Of a stretch of DNA of 64,000 bases, positions 2,051 through 31,914 are shown piece after piece. The notes under the pieces are model-generated. The model ran no database searches. It had not been told where the DNA came from and saw nothing but the letters and a program-made list of their open reading frames with translations. The DNA is from Acidobacteriota bacterium (lineage in GTDB: Bacteria; Acidobacteriota; Vicinamibacteria; Vicinamibacterales; UBA2999): NCBI GenBank assembly GCA_021730945.1, contig JAKFYH010000009.1, positions 22,501-86,500 on the forward strand, written 5' to 3'. The position numbers and the translations under genes are program-made. Every line of letters begins with the position of its first letter. Position 1 is the first letter of the stretch.

Positions 2051-5029
2051 ATGATGGCAGTGTTGACAGCGCCAGTGACGGCCGCGCGGTATCTGATCGT
2101 TGGCCTGACCATCAGCCTCCTATTCGCTGCGCCAACCCGACTCCGCGCCCTTGATCCAGCCCGGGCGATCACCCAGTACACACACAACGTCTGGCAAACC
2201 AAGGACGGCCTGCCGCAAAACACCATCACCGCTGTCGCCCAAACACCCGACGGCTATCTCTGGCTCGGCTCTCGAGAAGGCCTCATCCGCTTCGATGGCA
2301 CCAGGTTCACGGTCTTCGATTCGCGAACCACTCCAGAAATCACGCAGGACCAGGTGCTCAGCCTCCTAGCCGACCGGCGCGGCCGCCTGTGGATCGGCAC
2401 CTGGGGCGGCGGGCTGGTTCGCTTCGAAGCGGGCAAGTTCACGCGCTATTCCGGTGAAGACGGACTTCCCGGCGAGTTGATCTCGGCCCTGCATGAAGAC
2501 CGGCTCGGCCGCCTCTGGGTGGGCACGGATGGCGGCGGCCTTGCGCGCGCCGAGTCCGGCAACAACGGCAACCCCGAGATGGGCAAGCCGCAACATTTCA
2601 TTGCCGAGCCCTCGCGAGGCGCGCTCGGTCTTAGTATTCGCGCCATTACCGATGACGAGAGCGGACTATGGGTGGCGACCGAGGCCGGCCTGGCCCACCT
2701 TGGCTCCGGCGGTGAACTCATTTCCTACGGGACGGCCCAGGGGCTATCACGAACCAGCGTGCGATCCTTACTGCGCGATCGCAGCGGCTCACTCTGGGTT
2801 GGAACCGACCTCGGCCTCAACCGCTACCGCGACGGCAAGTTCACCGTCCTGACCCGTGCCCATGGGCTTTCGAGCAACGTCATCGTCTCGCTCGTTGAAG
2901 ACCGCCACGGCAATATCTGGATTGGCACCGACGGCGGCGGCGTCAATCGGTGGCGCGACGGCTCGCTCACTTCATTCACCTCCAAGCAAGGCCTCTCGAA
3001 CGATTCGATCCTCGCCATGCTCGAGGACCACGAAGGCAGTCTGTGGATCGGCACCAATCTTGGCGGGCTGAACCAGCTCAAGACCGGACGGTTTACGCCC
3101 TTCGGCGTTCCCGAGGGCCTGTCGCAAGACTACATCCGCGCCATCCATGAGGACCGCCAGGGGACGCTCTGGATCGGCACCGAGGGCGGCGGCCTCAATC
3201 GCGTTCGCGATGGCCAGATCACCACATTCACCACCAGGAACGGGCTTTCGAACGACATCGTGTTTGCCATCGCCGAGGATCGCGACGGAAGCCTCTGGAT
3301 TGGCACTGACAACGGACTCACCCGCCTGCGCAACGGCCGGTTCGAGCAGTTCCACGCCGAGATGGGCATGTCGAATGACAGCGTCCTGGCGCTGCACCAG
3401 GATCGCGCCGGCGCGTTGTGGATTGGCACCTACGCCGGTGGTCTCAACCGCTATGAGAACGGCCGGTTCACGGCGTTCACCACCAAGGAAGGCTTGTCCC
3501 ACGACACCGTCAACGTCATCACCGAAGACCGTGACGGCAACCTCTGGATCGGCACCCGCGGTGGCGGCCTGAATCGCTACCGTGACGGCAAATTCACCGC
3601 GTTCACGACCCGGGACGGCCTCTCAGACGACCTGGTGTTCGCCTTGCACGAAGACGCAGAGGGCGCCCTCTGGATTGGCACTTACGGCGGCGGCCTCACC
3701 CGTTACAAGGGCGGCCAATTTACCGTCGTCTCCGAACGCCAGGGCCTCTTCGACAACGTCGTCCACCGAATCATCGCAGACGGCCGCGGCGATCTGTGGA
3801 TGAGCAGCAACAAGGGCATCTTTCGGGTGGCCAAGCGCGAGCTCGATGAGGTCGCCGACAACACTCGCGCCTCGGTGACGTCGGTCAGCTACGGCCTTGC
3901 CGACGGCCTGCGCAACGTCGAATGCAACGGCGGTGCGAACGCCGGCACGATTACCCAGGCTGGCATCGTGTGGTTTCCCACGATCGCCGGTGCAGTCGCC
4001 ATCGACCCGGCCAACCTGGTCGTGAACACGGTCCCGCCGCCGGTTCTGGTTGAAGAGGTGCTGGTCGACGGCCGGCAGGTTGCCGGCGACCCCGTCATTC
4101 GCATCCCGGCCGCGGCACAAACGCTCGAAGTTCACTTCACCGCGCTCAGCCTGAGTGCGCCGGCAGCGGTCCGCTTTCGCTATCGGCTCGAAGGACTTGA
4201 GGACGAGTGGGTGCAAGCAGAGGGACGCCGGACCGCCTACTACTCGAAGCTGCCGCCAGGCAGTTACCGGTTTCACGTCATTGCGGCCAACAACGACGGC
4301 TTGTGGAACGAGGAAGGGGCGGCCATTACCATTTCCGTGGCGCCACGCCTGCTGGAGACGATTTGGTTTCGCGGGATGGTGGGCGTGTTCTTGCTGCTGG
4401 CGGGCCCTTTGTTCTACCGCTATCGGGTCCGACGGCTGACCGCTCAGAAGGTTGATCTCGAGCGGATCGTCGCCGAGCGCACGGCCTTGCTCGAGGCGGC
4501 CAACGCGCGTCTTGAGCAACTGGCTCGCGAGGACGGCCTGACCGGGCTGCTCAACCGTCGCGCCTTTGACCGGGCGCTCGAAGAGGAGTGCCGCCGGGCC
4601 AGCCGCCTGCACTCGCCGCTGTCCCTCATGTTGATCGACCTCGACGCGTTCAAGGCCTACAACGATCATTTCGGACATCAGGCCGGCGACGCCTGCCTTC
4701 GCGAGGTGTCGCGAACGGTGGCGGAAGCCAGCCGTCGGGCAGGCGAACTGGTGGCGCGGTATGGTGGAGAAGAGTTGGCCGTCATTATCCCAGGCGACTC
4801 GCCCGACAGCGTGACCCGACAGGCCGAACAATTGCGGGCCAGGATTCAGGAACTGGCCATGCCTCACCCCGGCTCAAAGGCTGGCGTGGTCACTGTCAGC
4901 ATTGGCGTTGCCATTGGCCCGGTTGGCGGTGACGTGACCCCGAACGCCATTATCGCCTGCGCTGACCGGGCCCTTTATCTGGCCAAGGAACGCGGCCGCA
5001 ATCGCATTGAGATCGATCGCATGCCCTAG
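2051..5029 (+). CDS. Propeller-sensor diguanylate cyclase (Reg_prop, Y_Y_Y, GGDEF)
   Basis: A membrane sensor that should make c-di-GMP. After a signal/anchor segment (first 30 residues) there are 13 copies of the regulator-propeller motif LW[IV]GT-x-GGGL-R, which fits two seven-bladed beta-propellers outside the membrane. A Y_Y_Y-type beta domain, one transmembrane helix (around GVFLLLAGPLFY), a short coiled coil and a C-terminal GGDEF domain follow. The signature is YGGEEL, compatible with activity; the inhibitory I-site looks degenerate (RAGE instead of RxxD). The frame is open back to TTG 2015, inside the rRNA terminator, so ATG 2051 is preferred. A TAGAAT at 2047-2052 could instead give a leaderless GTG start at 2060. 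Convergent with the next gene, with a 4-bp overlap. Confidence 0.9.
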   Translation: MMAVLTAPVTAARYLIVGLTISLLFAAPTRLRALDPARAITQYTHNVWQTKDGLPQNTITAVAQTPDGYLWLGSREGLIRFDGTRFTVFDSRTTPEITQDQVLSLLADRRGRLWIGTWGGGLVRFEAGKFTRYSGEDGLPGELISALHEDRLGRLWVGTDGGGLARAESGNNGNPEMGKPQHFIAEPSRGALGLSIRAITDDESGLWVATEAGLAHLGSGGELISYGTAQGLSRTSVRSLLRDRSGSLWVGTDLGLNRYRDGKFTVLTRAHGLSSNVIVSLVEDRHGNIWIGTDGGGVNRWRDGSLTSFTSKQGLSNDSILAMLEDHEGSLWIGTNLGGLNQLKTGRFTPFGVPEGLSQDYIRAIHEDRQGTLWIGTEGGGLNRVRDGQITTFTTRNGLSNDIVFAIAEDRDGSLWIGTDNGLTRLRNGRFEQFHAEMGMSNDSVLALHQDRAGALWIGTYAGGLNRYENGRFTAFTTKEGLSHDTVNVITEDRDGNLWIGTRGGGLNRYRDGKFTAFTTRDGLSDDLVFALHEDAEGALWIGTYGGGLTRYKGGQFTVVSERQGLFDNVVHRIIADGRGDLWMSSNKGIFRVAKRELDEVADNTRASVTSVSYGLADGLRNVECNGGANAGTITQAGIVWFPTIAGAVAIDPANLVVNTVPPPVLVEEVLVDGRQVAGDPVIRIPAAAQTLEVHFTALSLSAPAAVRFRYRLEGLEDEWVQAEGRRTAYYSKLPPGSYRFHVIAANNDGLWNEEGAAITISVAPRLLETIWFRGMVGVFLLLAGPLFYRYRVRRLTAQKVDLERIVAERTALLEAANARLEQLAREDGLTGLLNRRAFDRALEEECRRASRLHSPLSLMLIDLDAFKAYNDHFGHQAGDACLREVSRTVAEASRRAGELVARYGGEELAVIIPGDSPDSVTRQAEQLRARIQELAMPHPGSKAGVVTVSIGVAIGPVGGDVTPNAIIACADRALYLAKERGRNRIEIDRMP

Positions 5030-5979
5030 GCCGGGCCGTCGATCCTCTTTCGCATCATTACGCGCCGGCCCTCCTCGGAGAACTCCACCGTGTCCATCAG
5101 CTCGTTGATGAGGAACACACCGCGGCCGCTGGCCTTTAACACATTATCGCCAACCAGTGGATTCGGGACTGCCTCCACATTGAAGCCGGGCCCGGGATCG
5201 CGAATGACGATCACCACTTCGCCGGCCGTGTCGAAGGTCACCGAGCATTGGACTTTCTTGGTAGGGTCGTTCTTGCAGCCGTGACGAATGGCGTTGGCGA
5301 GCCCCTCCTGTAGTGCCAGCTCCACCTTCATCACTTCATCTTCGGGCCATCCCTTGTTGGTCAGCAACTCCGTGACACCTTCGCCAACCGTGGTCATGGC
5401 CGCCGGATCGGCGGGAATGGTGATGTTGAGCGCACACGTGGAGCAATACGGGAGCAGGCCGCCAAGCTTCTCCAGTCCATCGATGGCTACCCGCAACTCG
5501 TCGAGCTTGCGCCGCAGCTCCAGTTGCGATTCGGCCTGGCGCCGCAGCGCCTTCAGAGCCTCCTCCTGTCCCGCGGTCAGCGTTCGCGGCCGGTTGTCGA
5601 CGACGCAGATGGTGCCGAGCGGGTCTCCGTCGCGGGTCAGCAACGGCGCCCCGGCGTAGAACCGTATGTGCGGATCGTTTACCACCATCGGGTTGTCGCG
5701 AAAGCGGCCGTCGGTCAGCGTGTCGGTCACGACGAACAGGCCGGGTTGCTCGATCGCGTGTGAGCAGAACGAAATGTTTCGGGCGGTTTCCTTGACGTCG
5801 ATGCCGACCTTCGACTTGAACCACTGACGGTTCTCGTCGACCAGGGTAATCAAGGCGATCGGTGTGCCGCACACCTGCGACGCCAGGAGCGTCAGGTCGT
5901 CGAAGGCCTGTTCCGGGTCGGTATCAAGGATGTGATACGCGTGGAGGGCCTTGAGCCTGCCGGCTTCATTCGCGATCAT
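5026..5979 (-). CDS. GAF domain plus RsbW-type HATPase protein
   Basis: 317 residues: an N-terminal GAF domain (about 20-155; FCSHAI and AGAPLLT segments are typical), a short coiled linker with a GLLPYCSTC motif, and a C-terminal HATPase_c of the anti-sigma-factor kinase type (about 185-315). The N-box EGLANAIRHG, G1 box DPGPGF and G2 box GRGVFLI are intact. There is no HisKA dimerisation/phosphoacceptor domain, so this is probably an RsbW-like Ser kinase or switch protein rather than a classical histidine kinase. Eight bases separate it from the upstream deacetylase gene, so the two are probably co-transcribed. No anti-sigma-factor antagonist (STAS) gene lies nearby. Confidence 0.8.
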   Translation of the reverse strand: MIANEAGRLKALHAYHILDTDPEQAFDDLTLLASQVCGTPIALITLVDENRQWFKSKVGIDVKETARNISFCSHAIEQPGLFVVTDTLTDGRFRDNPMVVNDPHIRFYAGAPLLTRDGDPLGTICVVDNRPRTLTAGQEEALKALRRQAESQLELRRKLDELRVAIDGLEKLGGLLPYCSTCALNITIPADPAAMTTVGEGVTELLTNKGWPEDEVMKVELALQEGLANAIRHGCKNDPTKKVQCSVTFDTAGEVVIVIRDPGPGFNVEAVPNPLVGDNVLKASGRGVFLINELMDTVEFSEEGRRVMMRKRIDGPA

Positions 5980-5987
5980 TGCGTGCC

Positions 5988-7028
5988 TCACTTTGCCGCC
6001 ATCAGGGGCTTGACGTGGTTGGCAATCTGTTCGTGGGTCGCGAACCACACCCCGGGCTTGCTCTTGATGTATTGGACGAGTTTCTCGAGCATGGCGGTCC
6101 GGGATCGGTGTCCCATCAGGTGTGGATGCATGGTCAACAGGAACAGCCCGCCTTCGCCGTACGCGACATCAAACTCGGACTGGAACACCTCGAAGACATC
6201 CCCCACGGAGGGGTTTGAGCCGTCGGCGTTGCTGCCGAAGTAGGGTGCATCGTCCAGGATGCGTTCGATCGGCAGCTCAACGACTCCGGTGGGCGCGCCA
6301 TCCAGCAGGAGTTCGTAGGCATCGTCGCTGGCCATCAGGCTGCTGTCGTAGAGGAAGCCGGCCGCCTTCACCTGGCCCATGGTCCAGGCGCTGAACTTCC
6401 ACGATGGCGCGCGGTAGCCGACCGGCCGTTTGCCAGTCATCTTGGTCAGGGTGTCGATTGAGAGGTCGAGGAGGCGCTGCTCCTCGTGCTCGTCGTTCAG
6501 CAGCGGCAGGCGTTCGTGAATCCACCCATGGACACCGATTTCGTGGGCCACAGATGACACAGATGACGGAGTTACCGGGGCCGCAGATGACGCAGACGAC
6601 ACCGATGACGCAGATCCGGTGCCCATGATCTGCTGAATCATCTCCGGATGCAGGACGGCGCTGGCGGCCGGGATGAAGAACGAGGCCGGAACGCCCTGGC
6701 GGTCCAGCATTCGCAGGATGCGTGGCAGGCCGTCGATCGCGCCGTATTCGCCGCGCGACAGAATTTCGGAGTCCAGGTTTCCGGTCGAGAGGGTGGCGGT
6801 GGCATTGTCGACGTCGAACGACAGCCCGACGGCGACGCGGGCGCCGTTGGGCCAGGCTCCCTTCAGGCGCCGGCCGGCGCTGACGTGAAACATCTGGCTT
6901 TTGAGCTGATTCACGGACAGTTGGGTGCCAGGCAGTGGGTGAAGCCGGGTGATGTCGTTGGCGGCATGGGGAGGCGCTGGTGCGCACGCGGCCAGCAGGA
7001 TGAGCGCCGCGATCGGCAATCGGGTCAT
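5988..7028 (-). CDS. Polysaccharide deacetylase (NodB-like) lipoprotein with in-frame repeat insertion
   Basis: 346 residues with a lipoprotein-like signal (LLAACAP). NodB motifs are present: FDVDN (about 71-75) and HEIGVHGWIHE (about 162-172) with the metal-binding histidines, RAPSWKFS, and a late LTMHPHLMGH. It probably removes N- or O-acetyl groups from an envelope glycan or is a PuuE-like amidohydrolase. Residues about 139-161 are a Ser/Ala/Val-rich stretch encoded by a CAGATGAC-type DNA repeat (about 6549-6625), inserted just before the HEIG motif without breaking the frame. A TAGACT hexamer 5 nt before the ATG suggests a leaderless mRNA. Confidence 0.85.
   Translation of the reverse strand: MTRLPIAALILLAACAPAPPHAANDITRLHPLPGTQLSVNQLKSQMFHVSAGRRLKGAWPNGARVAVGLSFDVDNATATLSTGNLDSEILSRGEYGAIDGLPRILRMLDRQGVPASFFIPAASAVLHPEMIQQIMGTGSASSVSSASSAAPVTPSSVSSVAHEIGVHGWIHERLPLLNDEHEEQRLLDLSIDTLTKMTGKRPVGYRAPSWKFSAWTMGQVKAAGFLYDSSLMASDDAYELLLDGAPTGVVELPIERILDDAPYFGSNADGSNPSVGDVFEVFQSEFDVAYGEGGLFLLTMHPHLMGHRSRTAMLEKLVQYIKSKPGVWFATHEQIANHVKPLMAAK
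6549..6625. repeat. CAGATGAC dispersed repeat inside the deacetylase gene
   Basis: Repeated units CAGATGACACAGATGACG, then CCGCAGATGACGCAGACGAC and CGATGACGCAGATCC. The same unit occurs in intergenic copies at about 7427-7471 and 45822-45854. Here it lies inside a coding region in frame and encodes a low-complexity Ser/Ala/Val loop. Confidence 0.75.
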
Positions 7029-7033
7029 GGGGC

Positions 7034-7039
7034 AGTCTA
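7034..7039 (-). promoter_or_regulatory. -10-like TAGACT, leaderless promoter of the deacetylase
   Basis: TAGACT on the minus strand ends 5 nt before the ATG at 7028. No Shine-Dalgarno sequence lies between. No clear -35. Confidence 0.4.
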
Positions 7040-7081
7040 ACCCGGCCGAGGGAACTTCGGCTGGACACGCATCGTATGAAT

Positions 7082-29008: not shown

Positions 29009-29037
29009 TTGCCAGCCTGTATTAGGTCAAATATAAT
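29009..29037 (+). promoter_or_regulatory. Near-consensus sigma-70 promoter of the subtilase operon
   Basis: TTGCCA (29009-29014), a 17-bp spacer and TATAAT (29032-29037), the best promoter match in the window. Transcription would start at about 29043, giving a leader of about 150 nt. Confidence 0.75.
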
Positions 29038-29191: not shown

Positions 29192-31258
29192 ATGCTCAAG
29201 ATCAAATTTCGTTTCATCGTGACGACCGTTCTGACGGTGCTGCTTGGCGCCGCCGGAACCGCGTCGGCTCCTCAGGACAAACTCGATCGCGCACTGCGTG
29301 AAGGCCTTGGGCTTGGCCAGGCGCAGCGCGTTCTCGTCAAGGCCCAGCCGGGTGCCGACGGTAGGGTGCGCGAGTTGTTGGCGAGCCGTGGGGCCAGCAT
29401 CGAAGCTGAGTTGCGGCTGGTTGGCGCGATGACCGTCACGCTGTCGGCCAGCGATTTGATTGCGGTGTGCGAACAGAGCCCGGCCGTGCGCTCGTGCTCG
29501 ATCGACGGCGAGGTCACGTCGCTCAACACCGACTTCAACCGCGTGCAGAGCCGATTCAATCGCGGCCAGCGGAAGGGGCCGGCGACCTCCGCCGCCTCGG
29601 CGAGCACGCTGCTCGGTACTCTGGGTCTGCCGTACGGCGGTCCCGGCCAGGGCACGACCGGCGGAAAGGGCGTCACGGTTGCCCTCATCGACTCAGGTAT
29701 TGACGCCGGGTCCTTTGGCAGCCGCGTCACCGGGTTTTACGACTTCACGAAGGGCAACCATAGCCCGGCAGCGTCGGCTCCGCTCGACGAGTATGGTCAC
29801 GGCACGCACCTGGCCGGCCTGATCGGCGGCAGTCAGAAGATGCTCGACGCGGCGTATCAAGGCGTCGCGCCGGGCGTGAACTTCGTCGCGCTGAGGGTGC
29901 TCGATCACGAAGGCAAGGGTTTCACCACCGACGTGATTGCCGCGATCGAGTTCGCGATCCAGAACAAGGCTGCGCTGGGCATCGACATTATCAACCTGTC
30001 GCTCGGCCACCCCATCTACGCTCCCGCCGCCCAGGACCTGCTGGTGCAGGCGGTCGAGCAGGCGTCGAAGGCCGGCATCATCGTGGTCGTGTCGGCCGGA
30101 AACTACGGCGCCGACCCCAAGGGCAAGCTCGGCTACGCCGGCATCACCTCGCCCGGAAACGCTCCCTCGGCGATCACCGTTGGCGCGGTGGATCACAAGG
30201 GCACGGTGACCATTGCCGACAACCGGGTGGCCGACTACAGCTCGAGCGGCCCGACTTGGTACGACGGCCTCGCCAAGCCCGATGTGGTAGCGCCTGGCCA
30301 CTACCTGGCGTCGGAGCTGGCGGCCGCCAGCACACTCGCCACGACTCATCCGGAATTGGTCGTCACCGGTCCGTCGGGCAAGAAGTTCCTCCACCTTTCC
30401 GGCACTTCGCTGTCCACCGCGGTCACGACCGGCGTGGTGGCGTTGCTGAAGGAGAAGCGGCCCGACCTCACGCCGAACTTGTCGAAGGGCCTGGTGCAGT
30501 ACACCGCCATCCCCTTGAAGAATGATCGGGGCAGGGTTTACAGCCGGCTTCGCCAGGGCACCGGTGAAGTGAACGCTGAGGGCGCTCTGGTGTTGGCCGG
30601 CGCGATCAGGACCAACGTTCCGACGCTCGATCCGCTCGAGGCCAACGCGCAGGCCACGTACTGGGGCCCGAGTCGGAGGTCGTCACTGACTCAAGCGACG
30701 CAAATCGGGCGACGCACCTACGCGTGGGCCGGCAACATCGTCTGGGGCGACAACATCGTCTGGGGCGAATCGGTCCTCTATAACCTGCCGATCTGGGGCC
30801 TCAACATTGTGTGGGGCAACAACATCGTGTGGGGTGACAACATTGTCTGGGGCGACGGCCTGACAGTGGGTCACAACATCGTGTGGGGCAACAACATTGT
30901 CTGGGGCAATAACATCGTTTGGGGTAACCGGCTGGTCTGGGCGAAGAACATCGTCTGGGGCGAAGGCCTGATCGGCGTCAAGAAAGTGTCGTCGGCCGAC
31001 GACGAGAACATTGTCTGGGGCAACTTCGACGACGAGAACATCGTCTGGGGTAACTTCGACGACGAGAACATCGTCTGGGGCAACTTCGACGACGAGAATA
31101 TTGTCTGGGGTAACTTCAGCGACGACAACATCGTGTGGGGCAACCTGTTCGACGACAACATCGTGTGGGGCAACTCGGACGACAACATCGTTTGGGGCAA
31201 CGACGACAATATTGTCTGGGGCAACTCGGTCCTGACGAGCGGGAAGGGAGGCAAGTAA
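29192..31258 (+). CDS. Secreted subtilisin-like (S8) peptidase with C-terminal NIVWG repeats
   Basis: 688 residues. A signal peptide (TTVLTVLLGAAGTASA) and an I9-like propeptide (about 30-110) precede the S8 domain. The triad is Asp167 (VALIDSGID), His203 (YGHGTHLAG) and Ser406 (LSGTSLSTA), with oxyanion Asn304 (SAGNYG). The domain ends near residue 475. Residues 514-678 contain 17 exact NIVWG pentapeptides plus degenerate PIWG and LVWA copies. The first part is spaced as back-to-back NIVWG[ND] hexapeptides; the later part has acidic spacers (FDDE, SDD), giving 10-residue repeats. The tail may be a repetitive beta structure for surface attachment or assembly. Stop and the next start overlap as TAATG. 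Confidence 0.9.
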   Translation: MLKIKFRFIVTTVLTVLLGAAGTASAPQDKLDRALREGLGLGQAQRVLVKAQPGADGRVRELLASRGASIEAELRLVGAMTVTLSASDLIAVCEQSPAVRSCSIDGEVTSLNTDFNRVQSRFNRGQRKGPATSAASASTLLGTLGLPYGGPGQGTTGGKGVTVALIDSGIDAGSFGSRVTGFYDFTKGNHSPAASAPLDEYGHGTHLAGLIGGSQKMLDAAYQGVAPGVNFVALRVLDHEGKGFTTDVIAAIEFAIQNKAALGIDIINLSLGHPIYAPAAQDLLVQAVEQASKAGIIVVVSAGNYGADPKGKLGYAGITSPGNAPSAITVGAVDHKGTVTIADNRVADYSSSGPTWYDGLAKPDVVAPGHYLASELAAASTLATTHPELVVTGPSGKKFLHLSGTSLSTAVTTGVVALLKEKRPDLTPNLSKGLVQYTAIPLKNDRGRVYSRLRQGTGEVNAEGALVLAGAIRTNVPTLDPLEANAQATYWGPSRRSSLTQATQIGRRTYAWAGNIVWGDNIVWGESVLYNLPIWGLNIVWGNNIVWGDNIVWGDGLTVGHNIVWGNNIVWGNNIVWGNRLVWAKNIVWGEGLIGVKKVSSADDENIVWGNFDDENIVWGNFDDENIVWGNFDDENIVWGNFSDDNIVWGNLFDDNIVWGNSDDNIVWGNDDNIVWGNSVLTSGKGGK
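30731..31225 (+). repeat. Coding repeat array (NIVWG units)
   Basis: DNA units of the form AACAT(C/T)GT(C/G)TGGGG recur 17 times, with 18-bp period in the first half and 30-bp period around 31003-31130. Third-position differences between copies preserve the amino acids, pointing to selection on the protein. Confidence 0.85.
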
Positions 31259-31914
31259 TGGAGAAGATGCCTTACCAGCCCGACCTCGACCGCACCACGG
31301 CATCGGCCGCGTCTGCCACCGTCGCGACCACGACAGACTGGCGTGCCGGCCTGCCGGTGATGGCGGGCTCCAACTTCACCCTCCGGGAGCTGCGCGCCGC
31401 CGACGCCGCGTCGCTGCTGGCGATGCTGACGACCGAGGAAGTGTCGCGCTTCATTTCGCCGCCGCCGACCACCCTCGATGGATTCGAGCGGTTCATCGCC
31501 TGGACGCATCGCGAACGCCTGACCGGCAACTACATTTGCTTTGGCATCGTTCCCGAAGGCATGGAGCACGCGGTTGGGCTCTTCCAACTTCGCTCGCTCG
31601 AGCCTGGCTTTGCCTCATGTGAATGGGGCTTTGCGATGGGGTCGTCGTTCTGGGGAACCGGCGTGTTCGCCGAAGGCGCACGCCTGGTGGTGAATTTTGC
31701 GGTCGACGTGGTTGGGGCGCAGCGCCTCGAGGCGCGTGCGGCCGTGGCAAACGGTCGCGGTAATGGAGCCCTGCGCAAGATTGGCGCCGTCCAGGAAGGC
31801 GTGTTGCGCCGTTCGTTCCTTCGCGATGGCCAGTATCACGACCAGGTGTTGTGGTCGATCCTCGCCGAAGATTGGCGCCTGCAGCGGATGGGCGTCGCGG
31901 CGATCGTCCACTAG
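31258..31914 (+). CDS. GNAT N-acetyltransferase (RimJ/RimL type)
   Basis: 218 residues. The GNAT core starts at FTLRELRAADAASLLAML; the family motifs SCEWGFAMGSSFWGTGVFAEGA (split over motif B/A) and ARAAVANGRGNGALRKIGAVQEGVLR match RimJ/RimL-type enzymes that acetylate protein N-termini or other amines. No signal peptide, so cytoplasmic. Its ATG overlaps the subtilase stop (TAATG) and GGGAGG lies about 8 nt upstream, so it is co-translated with the protease. The functional link is unknown. Confidence 0.87.
   Translation: MEKMPYQPDLDRTTASAASATVATTTDWRAGLPVMAGSNFTLRELRAADAASLLAMLTTEEVSRFISPPPTTLDGFERFIAWTHRERLTGNYICFGIVPEGMEHAVGLFQLRSLEPGFASCEWGFAMGSSFWGTGVFAEGARLVVNFAVDVVGAQRLEARAAVANGRGNGALRKIGAVQEGVLRRSFLRDGQYHDQVLWSILAEDWRLQRMGVAAIVH

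Follow-up and report, generated by a model that had tools for sequence, protein, structure and literature searches.

S8 subtilases with a C-terminal tail of tandem W-hexads, six-residue units of the form x-h-h-W-[GSAT]-[DEN], constitute a family that occurs throughout the phylum Acidobacteriota, often with several members per genome. One member, a 688-residue protein, is encoded in the window, the stretch of 64,000 nucleotides that was analysed. It is possible, at a little under an even chance in our estimate, that these proteins are exported proteases equipped with a variable-length, β-solenoid-like docking or assembly module. Acidobacteriota are among the commonest soil bacteria and are poorly characterised. 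The tail matches no model in Pfam or NCBIfam, in agreement with the initial annotation, whose author knew of no characterised domain with this repeat. It recurs on secreted-type proteases and can be modelled at once; such a model would annotate many proteins that are now named only 'S8 peptidase'.

The protease and its hexad tail

The Pfam Peptidase_S8 model (PF00082) matches residues 158-458 with an E-value of 7e-49 and 167 bits, against a cut-off of 21.8, and in NCBIfam the 688-residue protein matches S8 families only, all sub-threshold. The Asp/His/Ser triad (D167, H203 and S406) and the oxyanion asparagine (N304) stand in the S8 motif context, which together with the domain score above the curated cut-off places the protein among the S8 subtilases. 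These four residues are invariant when 24 relatives are aligned, so the catalytic set is intact, as had been noted before. The prodomain and the catalytic domain are confidently modelled by AlphaFold; the prodomain region has no Pfam match and is named from its fold order in this model. As judged from its sequence, the protein is probably an intact, exported S8 subtilase. Upstream of the gene, one promoter-like match is observed (0.3 expected in shuffles), no RNA element is found in Rfam, and comparison with the ortholog reveals no clear conserved block.

Table 1. Features of the protease locus, in window coordinates
Feature	Position	Strand	Basis or remark
Sigma-70-like promoter match TTGCCA-17-TATAAT, 11/12	29009..29037	+	~155 nt 5' of the start codon; consensus match only
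S8 subtilase with C-terminal W-hexad tail, 688 aa	29192..31258	+	ORF, Pfam, motifs, alignment of relatives
Probable Sec signal peptide (MLKIKFRFIVTTVLTVLLGAAGTASA)	29192..29269	+	Sequence reading; AlphaFold helix 6-20
Prodomain-like fold, ~aa 31-110, inhibitor-I9-like strand/helix order	29282..29521	+	AlphaFold pLDDT ~90-96
Peptidase_S8 domain, aa 158-458	29663..30565	+	Pfam, motifs, alignment
Catalytic-motif residues D167 / H203 / N304 / S406	29690 / 29798 / 30101 / 30407	+	Motif reading
Tail entry TQIGRR-TYAWAG, a pair of degenerate hexads sharing the phase of the repeats	30698..30733	+	TxIxxx-xYxWAx conserved among relatives; strands predicted, pLDDT 71-89 for the block
Tail part 1: NIVWG[DNE] hexads, 9 NIVWG copies plus degenerate LPIWG and RLVWA	30734..30961	+	Repeat count
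Tail part 2: 8 NIVWG copies, acidic spacers between, 10,10,10,10,10,9,8 residues apart	31007..31222	+	Repeat count
C-terminal SVLTSGKGGK	31226..31255	+	GG near the C-terminus recurs in relatives
RimJ/RimL-type GNAT acetyltransferase, 218 aa	31258..31914	+	Acetyltransf_3 E 4.8e-20; adjacency conserved

The tail holds 17 exact NIVWG copies between residues 515 and 677, accompanied by the degenerate units LPIWG and RLVWA. The spacings between successive copies (6,17,6,6,12,6,6,12,20,10,10,10,10,10,9,8) show hexads first and five 10-residue steps after, with FDDE, FSDD and LFDD spacers, and this confirms the copy number and the order of hexads and 10-residue repeats reported initially. When the tail is shuffled 10,000 times with its composition preserved, no shuffle has more than one NIVWG copy. 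The DNA of the copies varies only at third codon positions, with 10 distinct 15-mers among the 17, as also observed earlier.

When relatives are considered, the evolutionarily conserved unit is the W-hexad and not NIVWG, as seen in tails built from NIVWGD, TIIWGD, QALWGD or GILWAD. In the hexads of 94 distinct tailed proteins, each weighted equally, position 0 is Asn in 31%, followed by Gly, Thr, Ser, Arg and others; with Asn in about one-third of the hexads, the reading of Asn as a defining residue in the initial annotation is not supported. Positions 1 and 2 are I/V/L/A and V/I/L/A, respectively, position 3 is Trp because the search pattern demanded it, position 4, where the pattern allowed Gly, Ser, Ala and Thr, is Gly in 70%, then Ser and Ala, and position 5 is Asp in 58%, then Glu, Asn and Gln. 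Among the 1,017 spacings below 25 residues in the collected tails, 551 are exactly 6, one is shorter and the longer ones spread over 7-24. Because the spacings are 6 or longer, with just one shorter, there is a single insertion point in the unit, after the residue that follows the Gly, and the acidic spacers of the window tail are one kind of insertion at this point. Conservation covers the Trp, the small residue that follows and the six-residue pitch; the Asn, the Ile-Val and the acidic spacers are lineage-specific. The latter weakens the proposal that Ca2+ controls the tail via its acidic spacers, which is not supported as a general mechanism, since many members have hexads without spacers. 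In the collected tails, Trp and acidic residues each account for about 12% and basic residues for 2%. The conserved entry (TxIxxx-xYxWA) and a first loop (NLPxWGL-like) are identically placed in distant relatives, and the GG near the C-terminus is present in 23 of 36 GNAT-linked relatives versus none of 26 HD-GYP-linked ones.

Comparison with the closest ortholog (genome G005) gives dN 0.14 and dS 0.97 for the catalytic domain, dN 0.09 and dS 0.50 for tail residues 506-600, and dN 0.06 and dS 0.67 for residues 601-688. In this one ortholog comparison, dN/dS is about 0.19 and 0.09 for the two tail parts, versus 0.14 for the catalytic domain; the tail is therefore constrained about as strongly as the enzyme, and the selection suspected in the initial annotation is purifying. 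The lower dS of the tail hints at some homogenisation or codon bias, and the NIVWG copy number is 17 in the window protein versus 15 in the ortholog. In the HD-GYP-linked paralogs, repeat homogenisation is plain: the TIIWGD array in the genome of the window has 2 variable sites of 18, and its ortholog has QIIWGD in every unit. Near-identical DNA units (2-3 variable sites of 18) are seen in some paralogs, and perfect arrays exist (TIIWGD x13, TLVWGD x16). In the single-contig genome G050, a TLVWGD array (near 6897-7057, reverse complement) contains a 2-base deletion, one step being 34 versus 36; this shifts the frame and ends the protein early, with the remaining units continuing in another frame, and could be phase variation or a sequencing error.

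Distribution and gene context

At least three more paralogs are encoded in the genome of the window: a pair with NIVWG tails that share a contig, and one whose tail is TIIWGD x13. The whole protein is matched in 57 of 60 relatives, most of them from the order of the window, and a single genome can have as many as 18 matched stretches. With the hexads as the only query, matches are found in 33 of 40 relatives and, at E ≤ 1e-8, in 42 of 247 genomes drawn across the phylum. Most of the hexad-matching loci sampled across the phylum encode S8 proteins, among whose tails are QALWGD, GILWAD, SALWSD and SVIWGS, and in the loci checked the tails occur only on S8 proteins. This phylum-wide occurrence is at odds with a recent expansion in a single strain, a possibility that had been raised initially. 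The deep search covers Acidobacteriota, and other phyla were scanned with six exact peptides only; a scan of 84,980 species gives 25 loci, all Acidobacteriota as far as can be told. Three of these are titled Cyanobacteria or Acidimicrobiia, yet coincide with genomes placed in the genus, family or order of the window; the titles of these three public records look wrong.

Short repeat ORFs, inspected as candidates for tails on non-protease proteins, are contig ends, frameshifts, remnants or ORFs cut by the fetched stretch. A plasmid or phage origin is rejected, as plasmid and phage records contain no true relatives, the matches being compositional and without Trp; one IMG/VR contig (L274) is a prophage, with a terminase near a truncated tail (near 2900-3140). 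On another contig (L060:700-1400), an integrase-like ORF runs directly into the last NIVWG repeats. The joints at these two contigs may be mobile elements inserting in tailed genes, or assembly artefacts. In the open-access library searched, NIVWG is mentioned in no paper, related strings occurring by chance only, and none combines subtilase with Acidobacteria and tandem repeat, or HD-GYP with subtilisin-like and Acidobacteria.

The stop codon of the S8 gene overlaps the start of the GNAT gene (TAATG at 31256-31260). The GNAT has an Acetyltransf_3 domain and its nearest relatives are protein N-acetyltransferases, which makes it a RimJ/RimL-type enzyme; the nearest solved relative is the ribosomal-protein-alanine acetyltransferase TTHA1799 (E 7e-15). 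It falls below the equivalog cut-offs of the RimJ/RimL models and has no visible secretion signal. The protease would be co-translated with this presumably cytoplasmic enzyme, whose target may be either the protease, prior to its export, or another component of the same response.

The context census comprises 99 relatives with flanks, from which 12 cut by contig ends were left out. Among the remaining 87, the downstream partner is a GNAT gene in 36 (on the same strand, no more than 1.8 kb downstream and in most cases immediately adjacent), an HD-GYP gene in 26 and a sigma-54 activator gene in 3; 22 have none of these. Nine HD-GYP-linked relatives were scored tailless in the census only through its narrow pattern (their units being QIIWGD, GIAWSD and the like). 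Pfam assigns HD_5 with GAF or GGDEF, and Sigma54_activat with HTH_8, to the partner genes. The S8-domain tree groups by context, with 12 changes of the GNAT label versus a shuffled mean of 26.5, and in this quick tree, with SH-aLRT as the only support measure, the window protease lies in a supported all-GNAT clade. In its own genome, each of the four best GNAT matches belongs to a tailed-S8 locus; three follow the protease gene immediately, and the fourth is 5 kb downstream, in the HD-GYP cluster. Of the 71 strong GNAT matches in 60 relatives, 51 have a listed S8 or tail match no more than 1.6 kb away; some of the others are at contig ends, and several are beside HD-GYP genes without a protease. 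In the genomes G039, G043, G047 and G040, the same GNAT family, single or paired, adjoins HD-GYP (and sigma-54 activator) genes without any subtilase, and for this reason the two may constitute a separate unit. In G017 (4800-6830), the ortholog of the window protease is a remnant, an S8 piece and few repeats in separate frames, and the two adjacent GNAT genes look intact.

Since an HD-GYP gene, often with a sigma-54 activator gene, takes the place of the GNAT gene beside some paralogs, at least these paralogs are probably under surface-lifestyle control, and their HD-GYP neighbour points to regulation through c-di-GMP-type signalling. The conserved partners provide a genetic handle on function. 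The family is thus far broader than the initial annotation indicated and better anchored in its genomic context, of which the overlapping GNAT gene and the HD-GYP genes had been overlooked.

Predicted structure and possible roles of the tail

In the AlphaFold model of the full protein, pLDDT is 27-52 for most of the tail. In the model of a homologous plain-hexad tail, strands recur every 18 residues, one turn comprising three hexads; the pLDDT is about 40, and with this low-confidence model Foldseek gives a single, non-significant match, to a γ-carbonic anhydrase (E 6.9). When the native sequence of the homologous tail is searched against the PDB, 15 of 16 chains are left-handed β-helices, the best being the γ-carbonic anhydrase-like subunit CA3 (E 7.5e-4). 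Native tails have no Hexapep or Hexapep_2 match in Pfam at an E limit of 10 (HMMER filters apply); on in silico replacement of Trp by Ile, Pfam matches appear, to β-helix families only. The pattern W-[GSAT]-[DEN]-x-h-h can also be overlaid on [LIV]-[GAED]-x-x-[STAV]-x. When all 120 letter orders of the hexad are compared with local left-handed β-helix proteins, however, the native order ranks only 35th or 26th, and the sequence resemblance is therefore not register-specific; a scrambled hexad also weakly matches LpxD. This control and the rearranged queries indicate that the resemblance is mostly one of composition and pitch, and membership of the left-handed β-helix class is not claimed. The solenoid proposed in the initial annotation agrees with the six-residue pitch, the loops placed only between hexads and the weak AlphaFold periodicity; the low pLDDT and the permutation control keep it a proposal. 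A solenoid resembling the left-handed β-helix is plausible for the tail.

In the docking or assembly reading, a zymogen-type S8 subtilase would be exported with its tail, each hexad would form one short β-strand and a turn, and the units would stack into a solenoid-like rod of variable length in which longer loops are tolerated at the turns only. The rod might then dock or self-assemble, holding the protease at the cell surface, the envelope or an insoluble substrate. Against this reading stand the low pLDDT, the lack of register specificity, the 22 of 87 relatives with neither partner gene and the GNATs that adjoin HD-GYP genes without a subtilase. In addition, Trp is bulky for the interior of a triangular 18-residue coil.

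Alternatively, the tail might have no fold of its own and be a sticky, amyloid-prone low-complexity segment, whose hhW cores stack between molecules into extracellular protease assemblies (functional amyloid, as in curli repeats). The short β-prone Ile-Val-Trp cores, the perfect arrays, the freely varying length and the low AlphaFold confidence of the isolated chain fit such a segment; the fixed register, the single insertion point and the conserved entry and first loop favour a defined fold, and we consider an amyloid-like tail unlikely, though a serious possibility. Secreted subtilases commonly carry C-terminal substrate-binding modules, and the tail, rich in Trp and acidic residues and poor in basic ones, could likewise bind an insoluble polymer (polysaccharide or protein) with its Trp side chains as an exposed ladder. 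As Pfam shows no likeness to carbohydrate-binding, PPC or PKD domains, such a binding module appears rather improbable.

The overlap of the protease and GNAT genes and their conservation together would also suit a peptide reservoir, cut by the protease itself, whose peptides the GNAT would modify or detoxify as in RimL-type peptide-antibiotic immunity. The same tail is found, though, on HD-GYP-linked paralogs that have no GNAT beside them, GNATs of this family occur without a subtilase, and the neighbourhood of the GNAT-linked proteases shows no recurrent transporter or modification enzyme, which leaves this idea very little probability. Slimmer still is the chance that the tail is a neutral repeat expansion without function. 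Homogenisation is indeed seen, both in the near-identical units and in the change from T to Q in every unit between orthologs, but the low dN/dS relative to the ortholog and the persistence of Trp and its small neighbour throughout the phylum, against drift at the other positions, already disfavour neutrality, unless homogenisation explains the selection data. The docking or assembly module is the reading that we prefer. Its boldest form, which we think improbable but worth stating, is a new tandem-repeat fold class: a Trp-hexad β-solenoid of free length, diversified as the C-terminal arm of proteases whose phylum-wide family is genetically tied to a GNAT enzyme and to HD-GYP (c-di-GMP-type) signalling, together making up an undescribed Acidobacteriota surface system.

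Comparison with known proteases and repeats

The window protein shares the catalytic domain, the catalytic residues, the order of prodomain and protease and the secretion signal with other S8 subtilases (PF00082), the closest solved chains being the subtilisin-like serine proteases 9ues and 3afg. It differs by the added W-hexad tail, and no PPC, PKD or P domain is found in it. RTX and pentapeptide-repeat solenoids are likewise built from short tandem stacking repeats, with unit lengths of 9 and 5; the W-hexad tail has no GGxGxD or A(D/N)LXX pattern, and spacers are not required. The RIVW repeat of archaeal and bacterial surface proteins is alike in name and in having Trp after Ile-Val, but is reported to be 42 residues long (PMC2447325), versus the 5-6 residues of the units described here.

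There is also a likeness to the hexapeptide repeat of left-handed β-helices (Hexapep PF00132; LpxD, γ-carbonic anhydrase). Both have the six-residue pitch, loops between hexads, a small residue after the key hydrophobic position and a turn of D/N followed by N/G/T, and there are weak PDB and NCBIfam matches; the W-hexad tail has Trp where the left-handed β-helix has Leu, Ile or Val. The regularity of the hexads makes these tails a test case for the question of whether a hexapeptide β-helix can have Trp in place of its aliphatic core.
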